DNA from: Acidobacteriaceae bacterium | GTDB taxonomy: Bacteria > Acidobacteriota > Terriglobia > Bryobacterales > Bryobacteraceae | Assembly (NCBI GenBank): GCA_019244055.1 | Contig: JAFATG010000228.1 | Span: 1 to 64,000 of the forward strand | Direction of reading: 5' to 3' | Length of the DNA stretch: 64,000 bases | Shown: positions 4,340 through 64,000 of the stretch, one piece after another | Numbering within the stretch: position 1 is the stretch's first letter | How the letters are laid out: every line of letters begins with the position of its first letter | Notes under the pieces: model-generated | What the model was told of the DNA's origin: nothing | The model's database searches: none | Seen by the model: the letters and a program-made list of their open reading frames with translations, nothing else | Made by a program: the position numbers and the translations under genes

Positions 4340-7300
4340 ATGCACAACGCATGGCTTGCAAGGAAGGCACGCCTCTACCTGGCGCTCGCAGTCTGTTTTG
4401 CTCTGTCAATTGTCGCCTTCGCCCAGTCGGACGTAGGTTCTATTACGGGTTTCATTCGGGATCAGAGCGGGGCTGTCATTCCGAACGCGCACGTAGTAAT
4501 CACAAATGAGGGTACGGGGCAGCAACATCCCGTCACCTCCGATGCCCAGGGACACTACACGGTCCCAAACCTTTTACCGGGTTTTTACGCATTATCCGCC
4601 GAGGCGTCCGGATTCAAGAAATTCGAGAGTACGCACAACAAGCTCAATGCGGCAACCGCTCTTTCGCTCGATGCGAGTCTGGCCGTCGGTCAGACGTCGG
4701 AAACCGTCGAGGTGTCGGCGTCCGCATCACAACTGCAGACAGAGTCCGGTATGGTACAGAAGAATGTCACAGCGCAGCAGATTCAGGCGCAGGAGTTGAA
4801 TGGCCGCAATCCGTTGTATATGGCTTCTCTCGTCCCTGGCGTCCGGAGCGGTACGAACCTGGGCGATTTCAATTTCAGCCTGACCAACGGCGGGTATTCG
4901 ATTAACGGTGCACGCTCTCAAGACACGCTGATCACCATGGATGGCGCAACCGCGGTCCGAACCCGGGCTAACGGTACGGGTATCGCGGTGCCGAACGTCG
5001 ACGCCACACAGGAAATTCAAGTGCTCACCGCGGACTATTCGGCTGAATATGGGCGCGCCGCGGGCGGACAGATTCGAATTATTACGAAGAGCGGCACCAC
5101 CGATTTTCATGGCGGGGCGTTCGAATATTTCCGCAACTCGGCGCTGAACGCAAATAGTTGGGGCCGTAACCTGAGCACGACTACAAACTTCACTTCTCCG
5201 TTCCGCTACAACGATTTCGGCTTCGATGTCGGCGGCCCGATGTGGGTTCCCGGGCTTCCCAAATCGATGCGGCAGAAGATGTTTTTCTTTGTTGGCGAGG
5301 AATGGACGCGCTATCGCTTTACCGATACCCAAACGCAAGCGGTCCCGACGGTGTTGATGCGGCAGGGAAACTTTAGCGAATTACTTGCGCCTAATCCCTG
5401 GTACAAGGGAGTCACCCAACTCTACGATCCGACGACGGCTCAAAGCGTGAAGAACGGTGTGTGCACGCCGAAACCCGGCTTTGCAGCTTGCGTGCCAATT
5501 CCGAATAACAATATCCTGGCTTACAACCCAAGTCTGCTGAGTCCCAATGGACTCGCGATCTTGAACGCTTACCCGGCTCCGACCCCAGGCTATCTGCAGG
5601 GTACTCAGAACTGGATCGCGCAGGCCGCGCATCCGATTAATCAACGCAAGGGCACGCTAAACGGCGATTTTCTTCCGACTGAGACGAACCACATTGCGTT
5701 CCGCCGGACTGATTTCTCTTACGACGAATATCAGCCGTTCGATCAAGGCTCCGGCGAAACCGGAAAGTACTTCATTCGCCCGAATCAGACGAATACACTA
5801 TCGTGGACGTATACCATCAATCCCACGACGATTAACGAGGCCATGGCGACCATCAGCTTGGATGATGTGTACATTCCCGTGAACACCTCATTGATAGGCT
5901 TCAATCGGCAGAACTTTAACCCGCCGATCACGTATCCGTATCTATTCGGCGGCAAAGATATCAATGGCAAAATACCGACCGTAAACGTGCCGAATTTTTA
6001 CGGTTTGGCCGGAGGTCCTTATCCGTCGCATTCTTCGGGTCCAATCTACGCGGTTTCCGACAGCCTGACCAAAGTCTGGGGCAATCACACCTTCAAGTTC
6101 GGTTTCAATTTCGAATACTCGGGTGAAAATGATGAGGACCAGATTAACGTCGCCACAGTGCCCGGCGGGAGCAACAACCAGAACGGCACATTCACTTTCA
6201 CGGATACCGGAACGGGCACCACGACCGGTGTCGGTCTCGCAAACCTGGCGACTGGATATGCCGACAGCTATACCGAAATAGGGCCGCGCGCATACACGAT
6301 ATGGCGAGGGCAGATGTATGAGGCGTTTGCGCAGGACTCGTGGAAAGTCAATTCGAAGTTGCACATCGACTACGGTGTTCGCGAGACAACGACGGTTCCT
6401 TATTACCCGCTGTGGGGCAATGCCGACTATTTCGATGGCAAGCTCTATAATCCGTCGCAAGCCGTCTCCGTTGACCCCAAAACGGGAAATGTGATTCTCG
6501 GCACGGGCAACCCGTATAACGGTGTGGTCATTCCAGGGTTCGGTAACTTCCCAACTTCTGCTCAGGGACGTGTGCTCGCCGCAACATCTCCGGCCTGCGC
6601 CGGCGCTTCCTGCTCGGGTTTATTCAATCCGAATCTCCCGGTTTCGTACGTGCACCACACGTATCAGTTCCAGCCGCGGTTAGGCATCGCTTACCAACTG
6701 ACTGACAAGACCGTCATTCGCGCCGGAGGCGGCCGATTTCTGACTCACATGGGCTTGCTCGACAACATCTTCCCCGGTGGCAACTCTCCGTTTCAACCAT
6801 TTGTCACGGTCACCAACGTGAGAGTAGATAATCCCACGGCAGCACTGACCACAGGCACGGCCGCGCCTCTCACGATCACTACTTTGAACCCGAACCTCAA
6901 GCCGCCGGAGTCCTGGAACTGGAACTTTACAGTAGAGCGGGAACTGTTCTGGAAAACGGTGTTGAACGTTGGTTACGTCGGACATCGGGGCCTCCACGGC
7001 TGGGATGTCTATGACATCAATCAGCCGGCCCCCGGCAGCGTACAAGCGAATCCAGGTGTCGCCACGAATGCGCTTCGTCCCTACAAAGGATTCGCGGCCA
7101 TTCAGGAAGAGGAACCCGTCGTGAACTCGACGTACAACGCTTTGCAGGTTACCTGGGGCAGGCGGTTCACGCAGGGCTCCACCTTCTCGTTTGCTTACAC
7201 GCTATCGAAGAGCTGGGATAACAGCTCGAATTATCGTGATATCGTTCCGTACACTTACAACACGAGCAACTTATGGGCGCCGTCGGAGTACGACACGCGT

Positions 7301-8360: not shown

Positions 8361-9755
8361 ATGAGCGACAAGCGGCAGAATAACCAGCTAGAGTTGGCCT
8401 TCGAGCAGGAGTATAGGGGTGAAGCCCCGAAGGGCCTGTCTGAAGGGACCGAATCGCTTGCGGTGAAGCGCGGGACGGAAAGCCGGGCTAACGAACAGTT
8501 AATGGAAGAAGTCTGCGAGCGGGAAAACTGCAAGCAGGCATTGGCACGAGTCAAGGCGAACAAGGGGAGTGCTGGCGTGGATGGGATGACTGTTCACGAA
8601 TTACCAGACTTTCTGAAAGAGCACTGGCCAGCGATCCGGCAACAGTTGTTGAGTGGAACTTACAAACCGCAACCGGTGAAACGGGTGGAAATCCCGAAGC
8701 CGGACGGAAATCGCTTTAGCGCAGGGGTGCGCAAGCTTGGTATCCCGACGGTGCTGGATCGATTTATCCAGCAAGCGGTGATGCAGGTTCTGCAACGCAG
8801 ATGGGACCGGACGTTTTCCGATCACAGCTACGGGTTTCGACCCGGACGCTCGGCGCATCAGGCGATAGAAGCGGCACAGCGGTATGTGACCGAAGGATAT
8901 CGCTGGGTGGTGGACCTGGATTTGGAGAAGTTCTTCGACCGGGTGAACCACGACAAGCTGATGGCGAGGATCGCGAAACGGATCAGCGATAAGCGCATGC
9001 TGAAGCTGATTCGAGCGTTTCTCGAAGCCGGAGTGATGGAAGGCGGGCTAGTGGGTCCGGTGGATGAAGGGACACCGCAGGGTGGGCCATTATCACCATT
9101 GCTGTCGAACATCGTACTCGACGAGCTGGACCAGGAGTTAGAGCAGCGCGGCCACAAGTTCGCGCGGTATGCGGACGATTGCAACATTTACGTTCGTAGC
9201 GAGCGGGCGGGTGAGCGCGTGATGGAAAGCGTCACGCAATTCATCGCGGCAAAGCTCAAGCTCAAGGTCAACAGCGAGAAGAGCGCGGTGGCTCGGCCAT
9301 GGGAACGCAAGTTTCTGGGCTTCAGCTTTACGAACGCAGGCGTACCAAAACGGCGGATCGCGCCGAAAGCGGTGGACCGGTTCAAGGAACGAGTGCGGGA
9401 CCTGACGTGCCGGACACGAGGGATAAGCGTCGAGCGGATGGCCGAACAACTGACAGGCTATCTGCGTGGCTGGATCGGCTACTTCGGTCGATGTCAAACG
9501 CCCTCGGTATTGCAGGGTCTTGAGGAGTGGATCAGACGCAGACTGCGGTCTGCGATCTGGAAGCAGTGGAAACGAGGGTCGGTGCGGTTTGCCGAATTAA
9601 CCGCCCGTGGGGTCGGCGTTGACCTTGCCGCTCAAACGGCGGGCAGTGCTCACGGTCCCTGGCGCCTGGCTTGCAGCCCGGCACTATCGTTTGCGCTGCC
9701 CAATGCTTACTTCGACTCGCTTGGGATTCCCAGGTTGATTGTATGCGGCAGCTAA
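8361..9755 (+). CDS. ltrA: Group II intron-encoded reverse transcriptase/maturase
   Basis: A 464-residue protein. The reverse transcriptase domain contains LGIPTVLDRFIQQAV, SYGFRPGRSAHQA, DLDLEKFFDRVNHD, GTPQGGPLSPLLSN (237-250) and the catalytic YADD (270-273). It is followed by a maturase/thumb region around LTGYLRGWIGYF. No HNH endonuclease domain is seen, as expected for class C proteins. A short extra stretch (residues about 117-121, NRFSA) interrupts the otherwise conserved KPDG-GVRKLGIPT segment. The protein is expected to bind the intron RNA, help it splice, and copy it during retrohoming to terminator sites. The gene lies wholly inside the intron. Confidence 0.95.
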   Translation: MSDKRQNNQLELAFEQEYRGEAPKGLSEGTESLAVKRGTESRANEQLMEEVCERENCKQALARVKANKGSAGVDGMTVHELPDFLKEHWPAIRQQLLSGTYKPQPVKRVEIPKPDGNRFSAGVRKLGIPTVLDRFIQQAVMQVLQRRWDRTFSDHSYGFRPGRSAHQAIEAAQRYVTEGYRWVVDLDLEKFFDRVNHDKLMARIAKRISDKRMLKLIRAFLEAGVMEGGLVGPVDEGTPQGGPLSPLLSNIVLDELDQELEQRGHKFARYADDCNIYVRSERAGERVMESVTQFIAAKLKLKVNSEKSAVARPWERKFLGFSFTNAGVPKRRIAPKAVDRFKERVRDLTCRTRGISVERMAEQLTGYLRGWIGYFGRCQTPSVLQGLEEWIRRRLRSAIWKQWKRGSVRFAELTARGVGVDLAAQTAGSAHGPWRLACSPALSFALPNAYFDSLGIPRLIVCGS

Positions 9756-9883: not shown

Positions 9884-11599
9884 ATGGCTCAAGTCAAGGC
9901 ATCCCCCAAACAATATGACGTCGTTATTGTGGGCTCGGGCGCTGGGGGCGGCGTCGCTGGGCAGGTGCTCGCCAACGCCGGGGCGAAAACGTGCGTGCTC
10001 GAAGCGGGCGACTGGTACGACTGCACGAAAAATTCCAAGATGTTCGATTGGCCGTACAACGTGCCACATCGTGGCGCCGGTACGAAAGACAAGCCTTGGG
10101 GATTTTTTGACGCCACAACTGTAGGCGGCTGGCGCGTGCCGGGCGAGCCGTACACCAATGCGCCTGGATCGGATTGGATGTGGTGGCGTGCCCGTATGCT
10201 GGGTGGGCGCACGAATCACTATGGCCGTATTTCACTGCGCATGGGTCCTTACGACTTTAAGCCGTACAGCCGGGACGGTAAAGGATTCGATTGGCCGTTC
10301 ACCTACGAAGAGCTCGCGCCCTATTACGATAAAGCGGAAGAACTGATCGGCGTGTTCGGTTCGGCTGAGAACTTGGAAAACACCCCAGACGGAAAATTCC
10401 AGCCACCACCCGCGCCGCGCGGTTATGAACGGCTGATCAAAATCGCTTGCGACAAGCTTAAGATTTCCTGCATTCCTTCTCGTTTAGCCATCCTGACGAA
10501 GTCTATAAATGGACGCCCGGCTTGCCATTACTGCGCGCAGTGCGGAAGGTCGTGCGGCGTGAACGCCAATTTCAACTCGCCAGGCGTGCACCTGTTGCCG
10601 GCGATGAAAACCGGAAATCTAGAGATCCGCACGAGCGCCATGGTCCGCGAAGTTCTCGTAGGGCCCGACGGGTTGGCCAGCGGCGTTTCCTATATCGACA
10701 AAAAGACGCGAAACGATGTGCAGGTAAGAGCCAAAATTGTCGTACTCGCTGCCAGTTGCTGTGAGACCGCCCGCATCATGCTGAACTCGAAGAGCAGTCA
10801 ATTCCCGAATGGGATTGCGAACTCGTCGGGGCTGGTCGGCAGATATGTAATGGATACGGTCGGGTCCGCGGTTTCGGGGTTCCTCCCTATCTTGCAAGAC
10901 CTGCCGCCGCAGAACGAAGATGGTGTCGGCGGCATGCATTTGTACATGCCGTGGTGGCTTTACAAGGAGCAGGCGGCGAAAAAACTTCCGTTTGCGCGCG
11001 GATACCATATTGAAATCGGCGGCGGGCGCGAAATGCCCGGAGTGGGCGCGTTAGGTGGATACGCGACGCATTTCCTCGATGGCGGATACGGCGCCGAAAT
11101 GAAGCAGAATCTACGAAAACTCTACGGCTGCCAAGTGTATTTCTCCGGCCGTGGTGAAATGATTCCCAACGAGGACAGCTACTGCGAGATCGATCCTGAG
11201 GTGGTGGACGAGTGGGGCATCCCGGTCCTTCAGTTCCATTTCAAGTGGAGCCAGGACGAGATTCTTCAGGCCAAGCACATGCAGGAGACGTTCCAGGAGA
11301 TCATTGAGACTATGGGCGGCACTGTCACCCATAAGAGCGGCGCGGACACGAATTGGGGAATTTCGCGGGGCGGCGAAATCATTCATGAGGTGGGAGCAAC
11401 CAAGATCGGAGATAATCCGAAAACGTCCGTTCTAAACAAATACTGCCAGGCTTGGGACGTGAAGAACCTTTTCATCACCGATGCCGCTCCGTTCGTCAGC
11501 AACGCGGATAAGAATCCTACGCTGACGATTTCGGCGCTAGGCTGGCGCACTTCTGAATACATTGCCGATCAGGTAAAAAAGCTGAACGTGAAGGTCTAA
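9884..11599 (+). CDS. GMC family oxidoreductase (FAD-dependent dehydrogenase)
   Basis: A 571-residue flavoenzyme. Residues 12-22 carry the FAD-binding Rossmann motif IVGSGAGGG, followed by the acidic residue in VLEAG. A cluster of cysteines at 214, 217, 220 and 224 (CHYCAQCGRSC) resembles that of large subunits of membrane-linked sugar or alcohol dehydrogenases. The C-terminal part has DAAPFVSNADKNPTLTISAL, the usual GMC end with the active-site Asn. The next gene, 17 bp on, encodes a gluconate 2-dehydrogenase subunit 3-like protein, so this is probably the catalytic subunit of a periplasmic dehydrogenase. No cytochrome subunit is adjacent. The exact sugar or polyol substrate is unknown. Confidence 0.92.
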   Translation: MAQVKASPKQYDVVIVGSGAGGGVAGQVLANAGAKTCVLEAGDWYDCTKNSKMFDWPYNVPHRGAGTKDKPWGFFDATTVGGWRVPGEPYTNAPGSDWMWWRARMLGGRTNHYGRISLRMGPYDFKPYSRDGKGFDWPFTYEELAPYYDKAEELIGVFGSAENLENTPDGKFQPPPAPRGYERLIKIACDKLKISCIPSRLAILTKSINGRPACHYCAQCGRSCGVNANFNSPGVHLLPAMKTGNLEIRTSAMVREVLVGPDGLASGVSYIDKKTRNDVQVRAKIVVLAASCCETARIMLNSKSSQFPNGIANSSGLVGRYVMDTVGSAVSGFLPILQDLPPQNEDGVGGMHLYMPWWLYKEQAAKKLPFARGYHIEIGGGREMPGVGALGGYATHFLDGGYGAEMKQNLRKLYGCQVYFSGRGEMIPNEDSYCEIDPEVVDEWGIPVLQFHFKWSQDEILQAKHMQETFQEIIETMGGTVTHKSGADTNWGISRGGEIIHEVGATKIGDNPKTSVLNKYCQAWDVKNLFITDAAPFVSNADKNPTLTISALGWRTSEYIADQVKKLNVKV

Positions 11600-61680: not shown

Positions 61681-62979
61681 ATGCACCGAAAAATCCTATC
61701 TGCCGCGCTAGTGATCAGCGCGGTTTTCTGGCTCGTTGCCGCGCGCGACAAGGCCGGCGATGATCCGGCGTTCGCTCAAATTAATGCAATTGTCAAAACC
61801 CTCTCGGAAATAACGGGCCTGAAGGAAGAGCACCCGGTTCCGTATGGGCGAATGTCAAAAGGTCAATTGCGTCATTTCCTGAATAAGCGAATTAAGAAGA
61901 CGCTAAAACCGGAGGAGATTCACGCGGACGAGCTGACCCTTAAAATGTTTGGCCTTGTGCCGCAGAACTATGATCTTCGAAGGTCAACTGTCGACCTACT
62001 TACTGAGCAGGCCGCGGCTTTCTACGATTACGACGTGAAGCGTCTGTTCCTGCTCGAAGATTCCTCTTTCGAGTCGGAAACGACGACTCTGGCTCATGAG
62101 CTGTCGCACGCACTGGCCGATCAGCATTTTGATCTGGAGAACTTCATGGATGAGGCGCCCTCGGACGATGACGAGAATCTCGCGCACACTGCCGTCGTGG
62201 AAGGCCAAGCGTCCTGGCTGATGATTGCTTATGAATTGAAAAAAGCTGGTAAGCCGCCTGAGCCGACACCAGACATGCTGAAGTCGGTAGATGACTCCAG
62301 TGAGGAATCGCTTGCCGATTACCCTGTCCTGAAGGGTTCGCCACTTTATATTCAGCAGTCGCTGCTTTTCCCTTACACGCAGGGCACGATCTTTTTCGAT
62401 GCTGTTTACCGCAAAAAGGGCAAACCTGCTTTCAGCTTGGTGTTTACGAATCCGCCCGTAGACTCGTCGCAAGTCATTCACCCTGATCGCTATTTTGCGC
62501 ATATCAGGCCGGCGAAACCCGCGCTGCCCGCGCTCGGTCTGACGCGCGAAGGAAAAGAGATCACGGAGGGTTCTGTGGGTGAGTTCGACCACCAAATGCT
62601 GCTGAAACAGTACCTGGGGGATGCGAAAGCCACCGAACTGCCGCCGCATCTGCGCGGTGCTCAGTACCGAATCCTAACCAGCGGCAAGAATCACCGGCCG
62701 GTCTTGCAATATGTATCGCAGTGGGACTCAGGTGAAAGCGCGCGTACCTTCTTCGCAGCCTTTAAAAAGGTGTTGCACGCCAAGTGGCGGCACTGCGATG
62801 AGTCCATCGAAAGCGGGACGACGTTTGCCGGCACTGGTGATAACGGCTTTTTCGTCGCACGCTTGAACGGGGACATAGTTTCGAGCGTCGAGGGTATTTC
62901 CGATGCTTCCGACTGGCAGCGGCTCAAGGGCGCTGGGACCGCCGCGGCCGCCTCCGCTCTGGCCTCGCGGGGTCATTAG
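61681..62979 (+). CDS. Zinc metalloprotease-like protein with HELSH motif
   Basis: A 432-residue protein. The N-terminal hydrophobic stretch (KILSAALVISAVFWLVAA) is a signal or anchor. HELSH at 139-143 is the zinc-binding HEXXH, and Glu174 in VVEGQASWL fits the third ligand of gluzincins. The remaining 250 residues have no recognisable domain. The fold resembles those described as DUF-type putative peptidases in Acidobacteriota. It probably acts outside the inner membrane; substrate unknown. The gene lies between marC and the redoxin on the same strand. Confidence 0.8.
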   Translation: MHRKILSAALVISAVFWLVAARDKAGDDPAFAQINAIVKTLSEITGLKEEHPVPYGRMSKGQLRHFLNKRIKKTLKPEEIHADELTLKMFGLVPQNYDLRRSTVDLLTEQAAAFYDYDVKRLFLLEDSSFESETTTLAHELSHALADQHFDLENFMDEAPSDDDENLAHTAVVEGQASWLMIAYELKKAGKPPEPTPDMLKSVDDSSEESLADYPVLKGSPLYIQQSLLFPYTQGTIFFDAVYRKKGKPAFSLVFTNPPVDSSQVIHPDRYFAHIRPAKPALPALGLTREGKEITEGSVGEFDHQMLLKQYLGDAKATELPPHLRGAQYRILTSGKNHRPVLQYVSQWDSGESARTFFAAFKKVLHAKWRHCDESIESGTTFAGTGDNGFFVARLNGDIVSSVEGISDASDWQRLKGAGTAAAASALASRGH

Positions 62980-63011
62980 CCTCAGTTACACTGTTGGATG
63001 GAGTTCCGAAC

Positions 63012-63599
63012 GTGAAGAAGATGTTGGCATCCCTCGCCGGAGTTGTCCTTGGTATGAGTCTGCTAGCCGCGGACGCGGCGAATGTTCGGAAGGCGCCCGA
63101 GCTAGCGTTCACGATTCCGGGTCAGGGACCGAAGCTGCTGAGCCAATATCGGGGAAAGGTAGTGGCGCTGGAATTTATTTTTACTACGTGTCCGCACTGC
63201 CAGGCCGCTTCCCGCCTGATGACGAAACTGCAGAACGAATACGGGCAGCGGGGGCTTCAGGTTCTAGATGTCGCTGTTAACCAGAATGCCGATCTGCTGG
63301 TAGAGAATTTCCAAAAAGATTTTCAAACCAGCTTTCCCGTAGGTTGGACCCAAGCGAGCCAAATGGAAGCGTTCATGGGTTTTAGCCCGGGCCGGTTCGT
63401 TGTCCCACAGTTGGTGCTGATCGACCGAAACGGGTACATTCACTACCAGACTCCGGCAACGGAGGATGCGAACTGGGACAAACTCATGAAGGAAGAGACC
63501 ATTCGCCAGCATATCGATGAACTGTTATCGCTCGGCTCGACGGCTGAGCAGAACGGACACCGGTCTTCGCACGTGGCGAATGCTAAGAAGAGTTCTTAA
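63012..63599 (+). CDS. TlpA-like thiol:disulfide oxidoreductase
   Basis: A 195-residue protein from GTG 63012, eight bases after GGAG; a TTG at 62994 is also in frame. A signal peptide (KKMLASLAGVVLGMSLLAADA) is followed by a thioredoxin fold with the redox motif CPHC at 60-63 inside LEFIFTTCPHCQAASRLM, cis-Pro in FVVPQLVLIDRNG and a helical tail. CPHC is the DsbA-type active site in a TlpA/ResA-like frame. It presumably reduces or forms disulfides in the periplasm. It ends 16 bp before the tRNA gene. Confidence 0.88.
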   Translation: MKKMLASLAGVVLGMSLLAADAANVRKAPELAFTIPGQGPKLLSQYRGKVVALEFIFTTCPHCQAASRLMTKLQNEYGQRGLQVLDVAVNQNADLLVENFQKDFQTSFPVGWTQASQMEAFMGFSPGRFVVPQLVLIDRNGYIHYQTPATEDANWDKLMKEETIRQHIDELLSLGSTAEQNGHRSSHVANAKKSS

Positions 63600-63615: not shown

Positions 63616-63693
63616 GCGCCCGTAGCTCAGCCTGGATAGAGCGTTTGCCTCCGGAGCAAAAGGCCAGAGGTTCGAATCCTCTCGGGCGTACCA
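63616..63693 (+). tRNA. tRNA-Arg, anticodon CCG
   Basis: A 78-nt tRNA including the encoded CCA. The acceptor stem is GCGCCCG with CGGGCGT (first pair G-U), TA at positions 8-9, D-arm GCTC/GAGC, anticodon stem TTTGC/GCAAA with loop CTCCGGA giving anticodon CCG, and T-arm AGAGGTTCGAATCCTCT with the invariant TTCGAAT. It reads CGG codons as Arg. The integrase remnant begins 47 bp after it. Confidence 0.96.
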
Positions 63694-63739
63694 AAATTTC
63701 GAACGTAAGCCTTTGAAAGCAAAGTTCTTCCGCAAACAC

Positions 63740-64000
63740 TTACGAGGTTCTCAGCTTCTTTGAATTTGGCTGAGTTAGGCCAATTTGGGCCAGTTTTTGC
63801 GACGTAGTTGGCCCAAGAGTTGGCCTGGGCCAACCCTCTACTTGATCTTTTCCGTCCTCGTATTCGAGCAGCATCTTTTCGAGTTCCGGGCCGGGTGTCT
63901 GCATGCCTGCGTACCACTCCATAGCACGGTCCATGTCGGCCTGCGCTGGATGCACATAACGCATCAGAAGGCTGAGATCGGCATGGCCGAGAATCTTTGC
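63740..64000 (-). CDS. Tyrosine recombinase (integrase), 3' end only
   Basis: The frame enters from the right edge and ends at 63740 (86 visible residues). It has ILGHADLSLLMRYVHPAQAD: the GH of the RHRH set and the catalytic Tyr in RYVHP, the usual end of phage-type integrases. A 60-residue hydrophilic tail follows. Its 3' end faces the tRNA-Arg gene, 46 bp away. That is the layout of an element integrated into a tRNA 3' end. The rest of the gene and the island lie beyond the window. Confidence 0.85.
   Translation of the reverse strand, partial: AKILGHADLSLLMRYVHPAQADMDRAMEWYAGMQTPGPELEKMLLEYEDGKDQVEGWPRPTLGPTTSQKLAQIGLTQPNSKKLRTS

Follow-up and report, generated by a model that had tools for sequence, protein, structure and literature searches.

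Positions 63694 onward of the window (the whole stretch of DNA analysed here, 64,000 bp, C304:1-64000) very probably form the integrase end of an integrated conjugative-type (ICE-like) element, inserted at the 3' half of a tRNA-Arg(CCG) gene. The element itself is an ordinary tRNA-integrated element of the conjugative type, a kind that is well known. We offer as the novel part of this analysis the cassettes that occur at the same tRNA in related genera.

The window comes from a draft assembly of 6.2 Mb in 372 contigs. Its contig, C304, is 69,418 bp long, and the further 5.4 kb from the window's edge to the contig end were read too. The tRNA-Arg(CCG) is the sole tRNA that ARAGORN calls across the 64 kb. 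The features around it are listed here.

61681-62979, plus strand: metalloprotease-like gene (Hvo_1808-like, below cut-off), a conserved flank recognised by homologue search.
62994-63599, plus strand: TlpA/ResA-like thioredoxin gene, a conserved chromosomal flank (NCBIfam matches all below cut-off).
63616-63693, plus strand: tRNA-Arg(CCG) with encoded CCA, the integration target (ARAGORN).
63644-63693, plus strand: attachment-site repeat of 50 bp, from the anticodon arm to the CCA, with an exact copy at C258:1334-1383.
63740-64000, minus strand: 3' part of a tyrosine integrase gene (ORF list, Pfam); the whole gene is C304:63740-65092 and encodes 450 aa.
63778-63833, no strand assigned: four TTGGCC/GGCCAA repeats (63778, 63808, 63820 and 63828) inside the 3' end of the integrase ORF.

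The first-pass annotation had placed a tRNA-Arg(CCG) at 63616-63693 with an integrase next to it that reads toward the tRNA. ARAGORN agrees on the tRNA. The minus-strand integrase has its stop codon at 63740, which leaves a spacer of 63694-63739 to the tRNA, the 46 bp that had been proposed. The integrase ORF runs past the window edge and is complete on C304 (PF00589, E 1.7e-17; PF13102, E 2.2e-8). Among solved tyrosine recombinases, it matches HP1 integrase over 50 residues, including 'RHTFA', 'LGH' and the Tyr, and XerD over 221. The His before 'xxRH' has a catalytic role in tyrosine recombinases; in the window integrase a Tyr replaces the His of HP1, as it also does in the homologues from G014 and from an IMG/VR relative. 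Of 257 Bryobacterales genomes, 2 contain the integrase at E <= 1e-60, namely its own and that of G014. Plasmid records gave 50 matches, all below 60% identity and none over 80% of the query. No shift in G+C occurs at the border between tRNA and element, and a promoter and terminator scan there returned 0 promoters and 0 terminators. An ORF at 63627-63917 on the minus strand runs antisense across the tRNA; such ORFs are a familiar type of artefact and this one is probably spurious. A second open integrase is encoded elsewhere in the same genome (G000:C206, L083, 1615-2840), is 36% identical and is accompanied by an xis-like match.

Reading away from the tRNA, the gene order is integrase, xis-like gene, two small ORFs, trbI, trbG, trbF and then the contig end. 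The xis-like gene encodes an excisionase-like HTH_17 protein (NCBIfam score 28.9, cut-off 28.8), and the two small ORFs that follow have no Pfam family. The three conjugation proteins are far above the Pfam cut-off (TrbI/VirB10, PF03743; TrbG/VirB9 CagX, PF03524; TrbF/VirB8, PF04335); the NCBIfam cut-offs are passed by TrbG_Ti and one TrbF model, and by no model for TrbI. The suggestion that the DNA right of 63693 is accessory is thus borne out by its coding content, an integrase, an excisionase-like protein and VirB10/9/8-type conjugation proteins, and this DNA is not to be read as core genome. Two features of an ICE are found here, namely a site-specific integrase with flanking att repeats, though the repeats lie on different contigs, and conjugative type IV secretion genes, represented by VirB10, VirB9 and VirB8 homologues in an incomplete set. 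The VirB4/TrbE profile PF03135 has zero matches in the assembly, in which the middle of the element is not assembled.

Relatives of TrbI occur at E <= 1e-50 in 37 of 257 Bryobacterales genomes, own included. Against plasmids it matches 3140 records, all below 60% identity and none covering 80%. A related cluster in G011, of the same genus, encodes TrbI, TrbG and TrbF proteins that are 77, 80 and 83% identical, and goes on with TrbL, a family-less ORF, VirB4/TrbE, VirB3, TrbC and a VirB11-type ATPase. That cluster (G011:C25, about 36.9-49.4 kb, L125-L126) has a different integrase, which ends 69 bp from a tRNA-Phe(GAA). The secretion module therefore accompanies more than one integrase and lies near more than one tRNA. 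No exact same-strand repeat of at least 18 bases that could mark a second tRNA-Phe end was found in 75 kb of G011.

The direct repeat of the tRNA 3' end that an integration would leave was sought, as the first-pass annotation had proposed, and a second copy is present. An 18-mer from the tRNA 3' end has 2 occurrences in the 6.2-Mb assembly, and its backwards-read control has 0. The exact repeat is 50 bp long (window 63644-63693 = C258:1334-1383), which we take as beyond chance, and the assembly holds no third copy at up to 3 mismatches. C258 is a contig of 5,278 bp, and its tRNA half is not called as a tRNA. To the left of this half lie two ssb (SSB) genes. To the right are integrase fragments that are 77%, 53% and 40% identical to the window integrase, then an SGL-like gene (PF08450 below cut-off) and a partial permease, which from its sequence we take to be of the ADOP type. 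The TTGGCC repeats flank the C258 tRNA half, one per side. The second, decayed integrase beyond the far copy probably reflects a tandem arrangement. Homologues of the SGL-like gene occur in 9 of 60 genomes (own included), with no tRNA beside them in the fetched loci. The repeat copies are on separate contigs, C304 and C258, so the assembly provides no physical link between the two ends.

Comparison with relatives shows genus-wide conservation upstream of the tRNA and none downstream. A TlpA match was obtained in 60 of 60 genomes (own included), many of these being distant paralogues only. Of the 24 loci L014-L037 from relatives, 11 have a tRNA-Arg(CCG) next to the TlpA homologue, and some of the other loci end at contig borders. 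The metalloprotease-like homologue adjoins TlpA in 6 of 20 loci (G001, G006, G007, G010, G011 and G012). For the other side, the ORFs 3' of the tRNA or tRNA half in the 11 relatives, C304 and C258 were compared by all-vs-all blastp (E <= 1e-8). The C304 downstream ORFs match, among the 11, solely G014, the holder of a related element. One downstream gene is common to G014 and G012 (83%), and the remaining pairs are 24-43% identical. An empty site for the window element was sought in ten relatives (G001, G002, G003, G006, G007, G011, G012, G022, G024 and G026), which share no ORF right of the C304 tRNA; because the downstream sides of the relatives are mostly unlike one another, a clean empty site could not be shown among them. 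Ten downstream ORFs were scanned from seven relatives, revealing IS110-type transposases close after the tRNA in G001 (L070) and G024 (L078), another transposase in G001, and elsewhere enzymes or membrane proteins. The tRNA thus forms a one-sided synteny border, as at a hot spot. Right of the tRNA, G011 (L072) encodes a distant homologue (32%) of the C258 permease and G013 (L080) shows a 34-residue match to it, and the old right flank may thus be partly conserved.

The sister element in G014 (same genus, Bryobacteraceae) encodes int, xis and trbI at 82-86%, 88% and 82% identity, and these genes lie between copies of the tRNA half. Contig C399 of G014 carries three such copies in a single orientation. 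Copies 1 and 2 enclose 4.7 kb with an int split over two frames, xis, two small ORFs, a trbI truncated at its N-terminus and a PIN-domain gene. Copies 2 and 3 enclose 1.1 kb (L076, reverse-strand coordinates 4784-5882) that encode UPF0175 and DUF3368 proteins, presumably an antitoxin-toxin pair, and this interval has no integrase similarity. In seven 200-bp att flanks from the window genome and G014, TTGGCC/GGCCAA occurs 17 times, compared with 0.76 in mononucleotide shuffles; elsewhere in the window it averages 0.14 per 200 bp. These repeats are possible arm-type integrase-binding sites. The 1.1-kb interval has three of them at its left end and two at its right, and with repeats at both ends it looks like a non-autonomous relative of the window element.

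A related integrase was also found on the phage-type contig IMGVR_UViG_3300005529_000032 (L124), in the region 10001-11451; it is 62% identical to that of the window. Seven of ten scanned proteins on this contig have a PHROGs match, and phage RecE-like exonuclease and helicase families are among them. Past the 3' end of int lies a tRNA-Arg half that is identical to the G001 tRNA over exactly 50 bp, and no complete tRNA gene is called in the locus. The half thus resembles an attP site, and its limits agree with those in the window. Near this half, GGTGCCCC/GGGGCACC stand in place of TTGGCC.

We infer that C304 and C258 carry the two ends of one element, which may still be mobile. Recombination by the integrase would have taken place between a tRNA half carried by the circular element and the tRNA gene of the chromosome. 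That gene would thereby have remained intact, and the spare 3' half at C258:1334-1383, beside the two ssb genes, would mark the far end. Excision would depend on Int and the xis-like protein, the trb products would make up a mating channel, and transfer would need genes missing from the assembled part. Since remnants of an older, related element lie directly beside the far end, the site appears to have been used at least twice. Like VirB/Trb-type ICEs at tRNA genes, the element combines an integrase near a tRNA, an xis-like gene, trb genes and a direct repeat of the tRNA half; unlike them, it has no VirB4 match and is assembled as one end plus a detached far end.

An alternative that we consider less probable, yet one to be taken seriously, is that only a decayed, immobile remnant survives, with the integrase end and a few trb genes left and the rest lost. 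The missing VirB4 match would agree with this, as would the split int, cut trbI and mere 4.7 kb between tRNA halves in the G014 sister and the int relic that follows the far tRNA-half copy. However, the element's own int, xis-like gene, trbI, trbG and trbF and both ssb ORFs are all open, and C304 ends within the cluster, so the absence could be a gap in assembly or binning. That the element is instead a prophage or phage satellite is very unlikely: the closest integrase found outside the genus does sit on an IMG/VR contig with phage-type recombination genes, but the seven ORFs scanned on C304 beyond the tRNA comprise TrbI, TrbG, TrbF, int, the xis-like protein and two without a Pfam family. 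A chimeric assembly or an unrelated fragment as the origin of the C258 tRNA half is similarly hard to credit. This half does lie on a separate contig of a 372-contig draft, but next to it are TTGGCC repeats and the relic of an integrase from the same family, and a similar layout occurs on one contig of G014. We retain the integrated conjugative-type element as the preferred explanation for the window.

Intervals bounded by tRNA halves also occur in other Bryobacterales. A degenerate pattern found the tRNA half in 202 of 257 genomes, and 35 genomes (own included, counted from tables) have at least two copies; in 15 of these 35 the copies lie on one contig, in the same orientation and within 15 kb. 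Intervals of 6.6-9.4 kb that bear an integrase occur in G075, G077, G228 and G229. The G255 interval measures 14.4 kb, that of G062 2.4 kb with an integrase, that of G184 2.8 kb with an integrase relic and that of G227 1.8 kb with no clear gene. Pfam searches of intervals of 0.3-2.4 kb identified an amidohydrolase (G103), a methyltransferase (G142), a member of the erythromycin-esterase family (G248) and a Cys/Met-metabolism PLP enzyme (G149). A second G149 interval has transposase-like ORFs (by eye), the G097 interval a small family-less ORF, and that of G028, 331 bp long, no credible gene.

Short intervals of 0.3-2.5 kb lie between tRNA-Arg, Pro or Ala 3' halves in these other Bryobacterales. 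Six integrases were used to search 22 intervals below 3 kb, of which G027 and G187 were left out (left bound not verified), leaving 20 accepted. Integrase similarity is absent in 17 of the 20, a count in which diverged relics could be missed; it is present in G062 and G184 and weak in G097 (27 residues). A shared right end is present in 15 of the 17 intervals without such similarity, and G014 and G227 are without it. The same right end is carried by an integrase-bearing interval in G242.

This right end was recognised in seven sequences from six genomes (G103, G142, G149, G248, G097 and G028), which are 74-91% identical over 63-304 bp in BLAST pairs. It extends up to ~290 bp, is noncoding-looking and typically finishes with GTAAGTGATTGAT, a T-rich stretch and the tRNA half. 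A sequence-only model of it has matches at E <= 1e-4 in 88 of 257 genomes and 51 of 84 genera; in the window's genus it has none in 17 genomes under strict filters, which lose weak matches. Among the 43 listed model matches that were examined, mostly the strongest and not counting the seven model-builders, a tRNA 3' half follows in 39, with T-arm and CCA at equal offsets. The anticodon loops of these 39 are Pro(GGG) in 16 (G173 ambiguous), Ala(GGC) in 12, Pro(CGG) in 9, Arg(CCG) in 1 and unlabelled in 1. The four without a tRNA half behind are G246, G161, G159b and G164b. Further examples of right ends, several with toxin-antitoxin or defence-like cargo, are at L214, L229, L216, L230, L231 and L250. 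On the other side, a left-end motif, TTCAAANACTTAC, lies within 50 bp after the tRNA half at 13 of 50 sites (builders included, up to 2 mismatches; shuffles 0.29%), and most of the 50 sites are without it within that distance. Its common form, CACTTAC, is the reverse complement of GTAAGTG. RNAalifold gave 41 pairs in the right end, 5 with double changes, but an unfavourable covariation term of +1.35, and the right end is treated as unstructured.

The cargo between such ends is varied. The 29 cargo ORFs submitted to Pfam were chosen by eye, so no frequencies follow from them. Intervals below 3 kb encode HigB with an HTH protein (G164), YafQ with RelB (G091), HTH_37 (G225 and G035), DUF3800 (G256b) and, in an interval with another right end, UPF0175/DUF3368 (G014). 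Longer intervals encode HicA together with a below-cut-off TIR match (G256), AbiEii (G173), Fic (G106), and ankyrin and DUF433 proteins (G064). A PIN gene lies in the G027 stretch, whose left bound was not verified. In the last cargo scan 5 of 9 ORFs were family-less, and one more had a below-cut-off match only.

A scan of IMG/VR for the right end followed by a tRNA half returned 0 Arg, 0 Pro(GGG), 0 Pro(CGG) and 1 Ala. The single instance, IMGVR_UViG_3300047509_000217 (L272), has the right end (E 1.1e-15) and a tRNA-Ala half at 9184-9400, with phage portal, protease and major head genes before the right end and a RelE-like toxin gene after the tRNA-Ala half. Phage and cassettes may share ends.

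Nine filled cassette sites were compared with 20 fetched loci. An empty sister site that matches both sides was found for 2 of the 9, G103 and G142; G149 has an upstream match only (G148, 78%), and the other six sites have no two-sided match among loci that for several of them included no sister genome. The G103 cassette is 1.9 kb long, encodes the amidohydrolase and lies between tRNA-Arg halves (L166, G103:C284, 902-2864). In G106, of the same genus as G103 (L256, G106:C50), the flanks are 99.1% identical over 901 bp upstream and 97.3% over 1,500 bp downstream, the tRNA is intact and there is no match to the cassette. Over the first 300 bp downstream, 275 of 300 positions are identical and the first ~20 bases differ, and this confinement of the difference places the joint to about 20 bp. 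G104 is likewise without the G103 cassette (downstream 85%). The G142 cassette is absent from G143 (upstream 88.5%, downstream 76.6%) and from G023 (upstream 82%, downstream 82.4%); here divergence over the first 50-150 bp downstream is too great for the joint to be located. Absence was in each case judged in the fetched loci rather than in whole sister genomes.

Homology of the tRNA halves begins at the anticodon arm. In G103 (L166) and G062 (L162), the T-stem of the intact tRNA agrees with that of its relatives but the displaced half carries a different one. In these two cases this suggests that the exchange took place 3' of the T-stem and not in the anticodon loop. The T-loop was dropped as a crossover point, both T-stems in G103 being self-complementary. 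In the part of its description available, Islander lists both T-stem-region and anticodon-centred sites (PMC4383910).

Taken from sequence comparison, our reading of the short intervals, to which we give even chances, is that they would constitute a Bryobacterales family of integrase-less mini-elements of 0.3-2.5 kb that insert at tRNA 3' ends and are moved in trans. With belief just as evenly divided, the targets would be tRNA-Arg(CCG), Pro(CGG), Pro(GGG) and Ala(GGC), with tandem stacking and often one gene or a toxin-antitoxin or defence-like module per unit. It is likewise a balanced call that the integrases would come from phages or larger elements that have this right end too, which would make the cassettes a tRNA-anchored counterpart of integron cassettes. 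As the ends are common and the cargo is not, the cassettes could be acted on in trans by the integrase of a phage, or of a larger element, that carries these ends too.

Integron gene cassettes are short units, often of one gene or a toxin-antitoxin pair, that occur in tandem and have a common recombination end. The Bryobacterales cassettes resemble them in being short tandem units with a single gene or toxin-antitoxin pair and a common end; they differ in that the boundary is a tRNA 3' half and that the shared end shows no evident conserved hairpin. They were not classed as integron cassettes, which have an attC boundary, since a tRNA 3' half comes after 39 of the 43 right ends examined.

The main rival to movement in trans is that the cassettes are decayed remnants of complete elements, kept for a toxin-antitoxin or other gene. 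CIMEs, as defined in the available portion of PMC5704250, are decay products of this kind, DNA without integration or transfer genes between att copies beside another element, which can accrete in tandem. The 1.1-kb toxin-antitoxin-like interval of G014 fits that definition as given there, and the cassettes do have att copies at both ends with, in 17 of the 20 accepted intervals, no similarity to the six integrases and, judged from the ORFs seen, no transfer genes. The integrase relics in G184, and the short ones in G256 and G259, favour decay for part of the cassettes. As the whole story, however, decay sits poorly with the cassettes of other genera, which share one right end despite differing cargo, and with the empty sister sites of two of them; both observations favour mobility.

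Two further descriptions of tRNA-bounded DNA bear on the proposed mobile cassettes. According to the accessible part of its paper, Islander uses a tRNA and a displaced tRNA fragment to mark island ends, tandem arrays being known, and rejects candidates without an integrase or below 2 kb (PMC4383910). By the filters stated there, integrase-less cassettes would be removed. Tycheposons, in the sections available, measure 4-200 kbp and have a tyrosine recombinase, a tRNA border and cargo (PMC10872708; passing mention in PMC11389934). Going by those sections, the cassettes have in common with them the tRNA border, the cargo genes and a tyrosine-recombinase context, and differ in their size of 0.3-2.5 kb and in that none has a recombinase detected with six integrases as queries. 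Assignment to the tycheposons was rejected on this size and this lack of similarity to the six integrases. Among the titles and abstract openings listed from open-licence PubMed Central, we found no description of such cassettes or of Bryobacteraceae elements.

If the reading of the cassettes as mobile units is true, gene exchange in Bryobacterales would run partly through units that island finders reject when they filter by integrase and a 2-kb minimum, as the consulted portion of PMC4383910 describes. Toxin-antitoxin and defence genes would then be traded much as integron cassettes are, without integrons.
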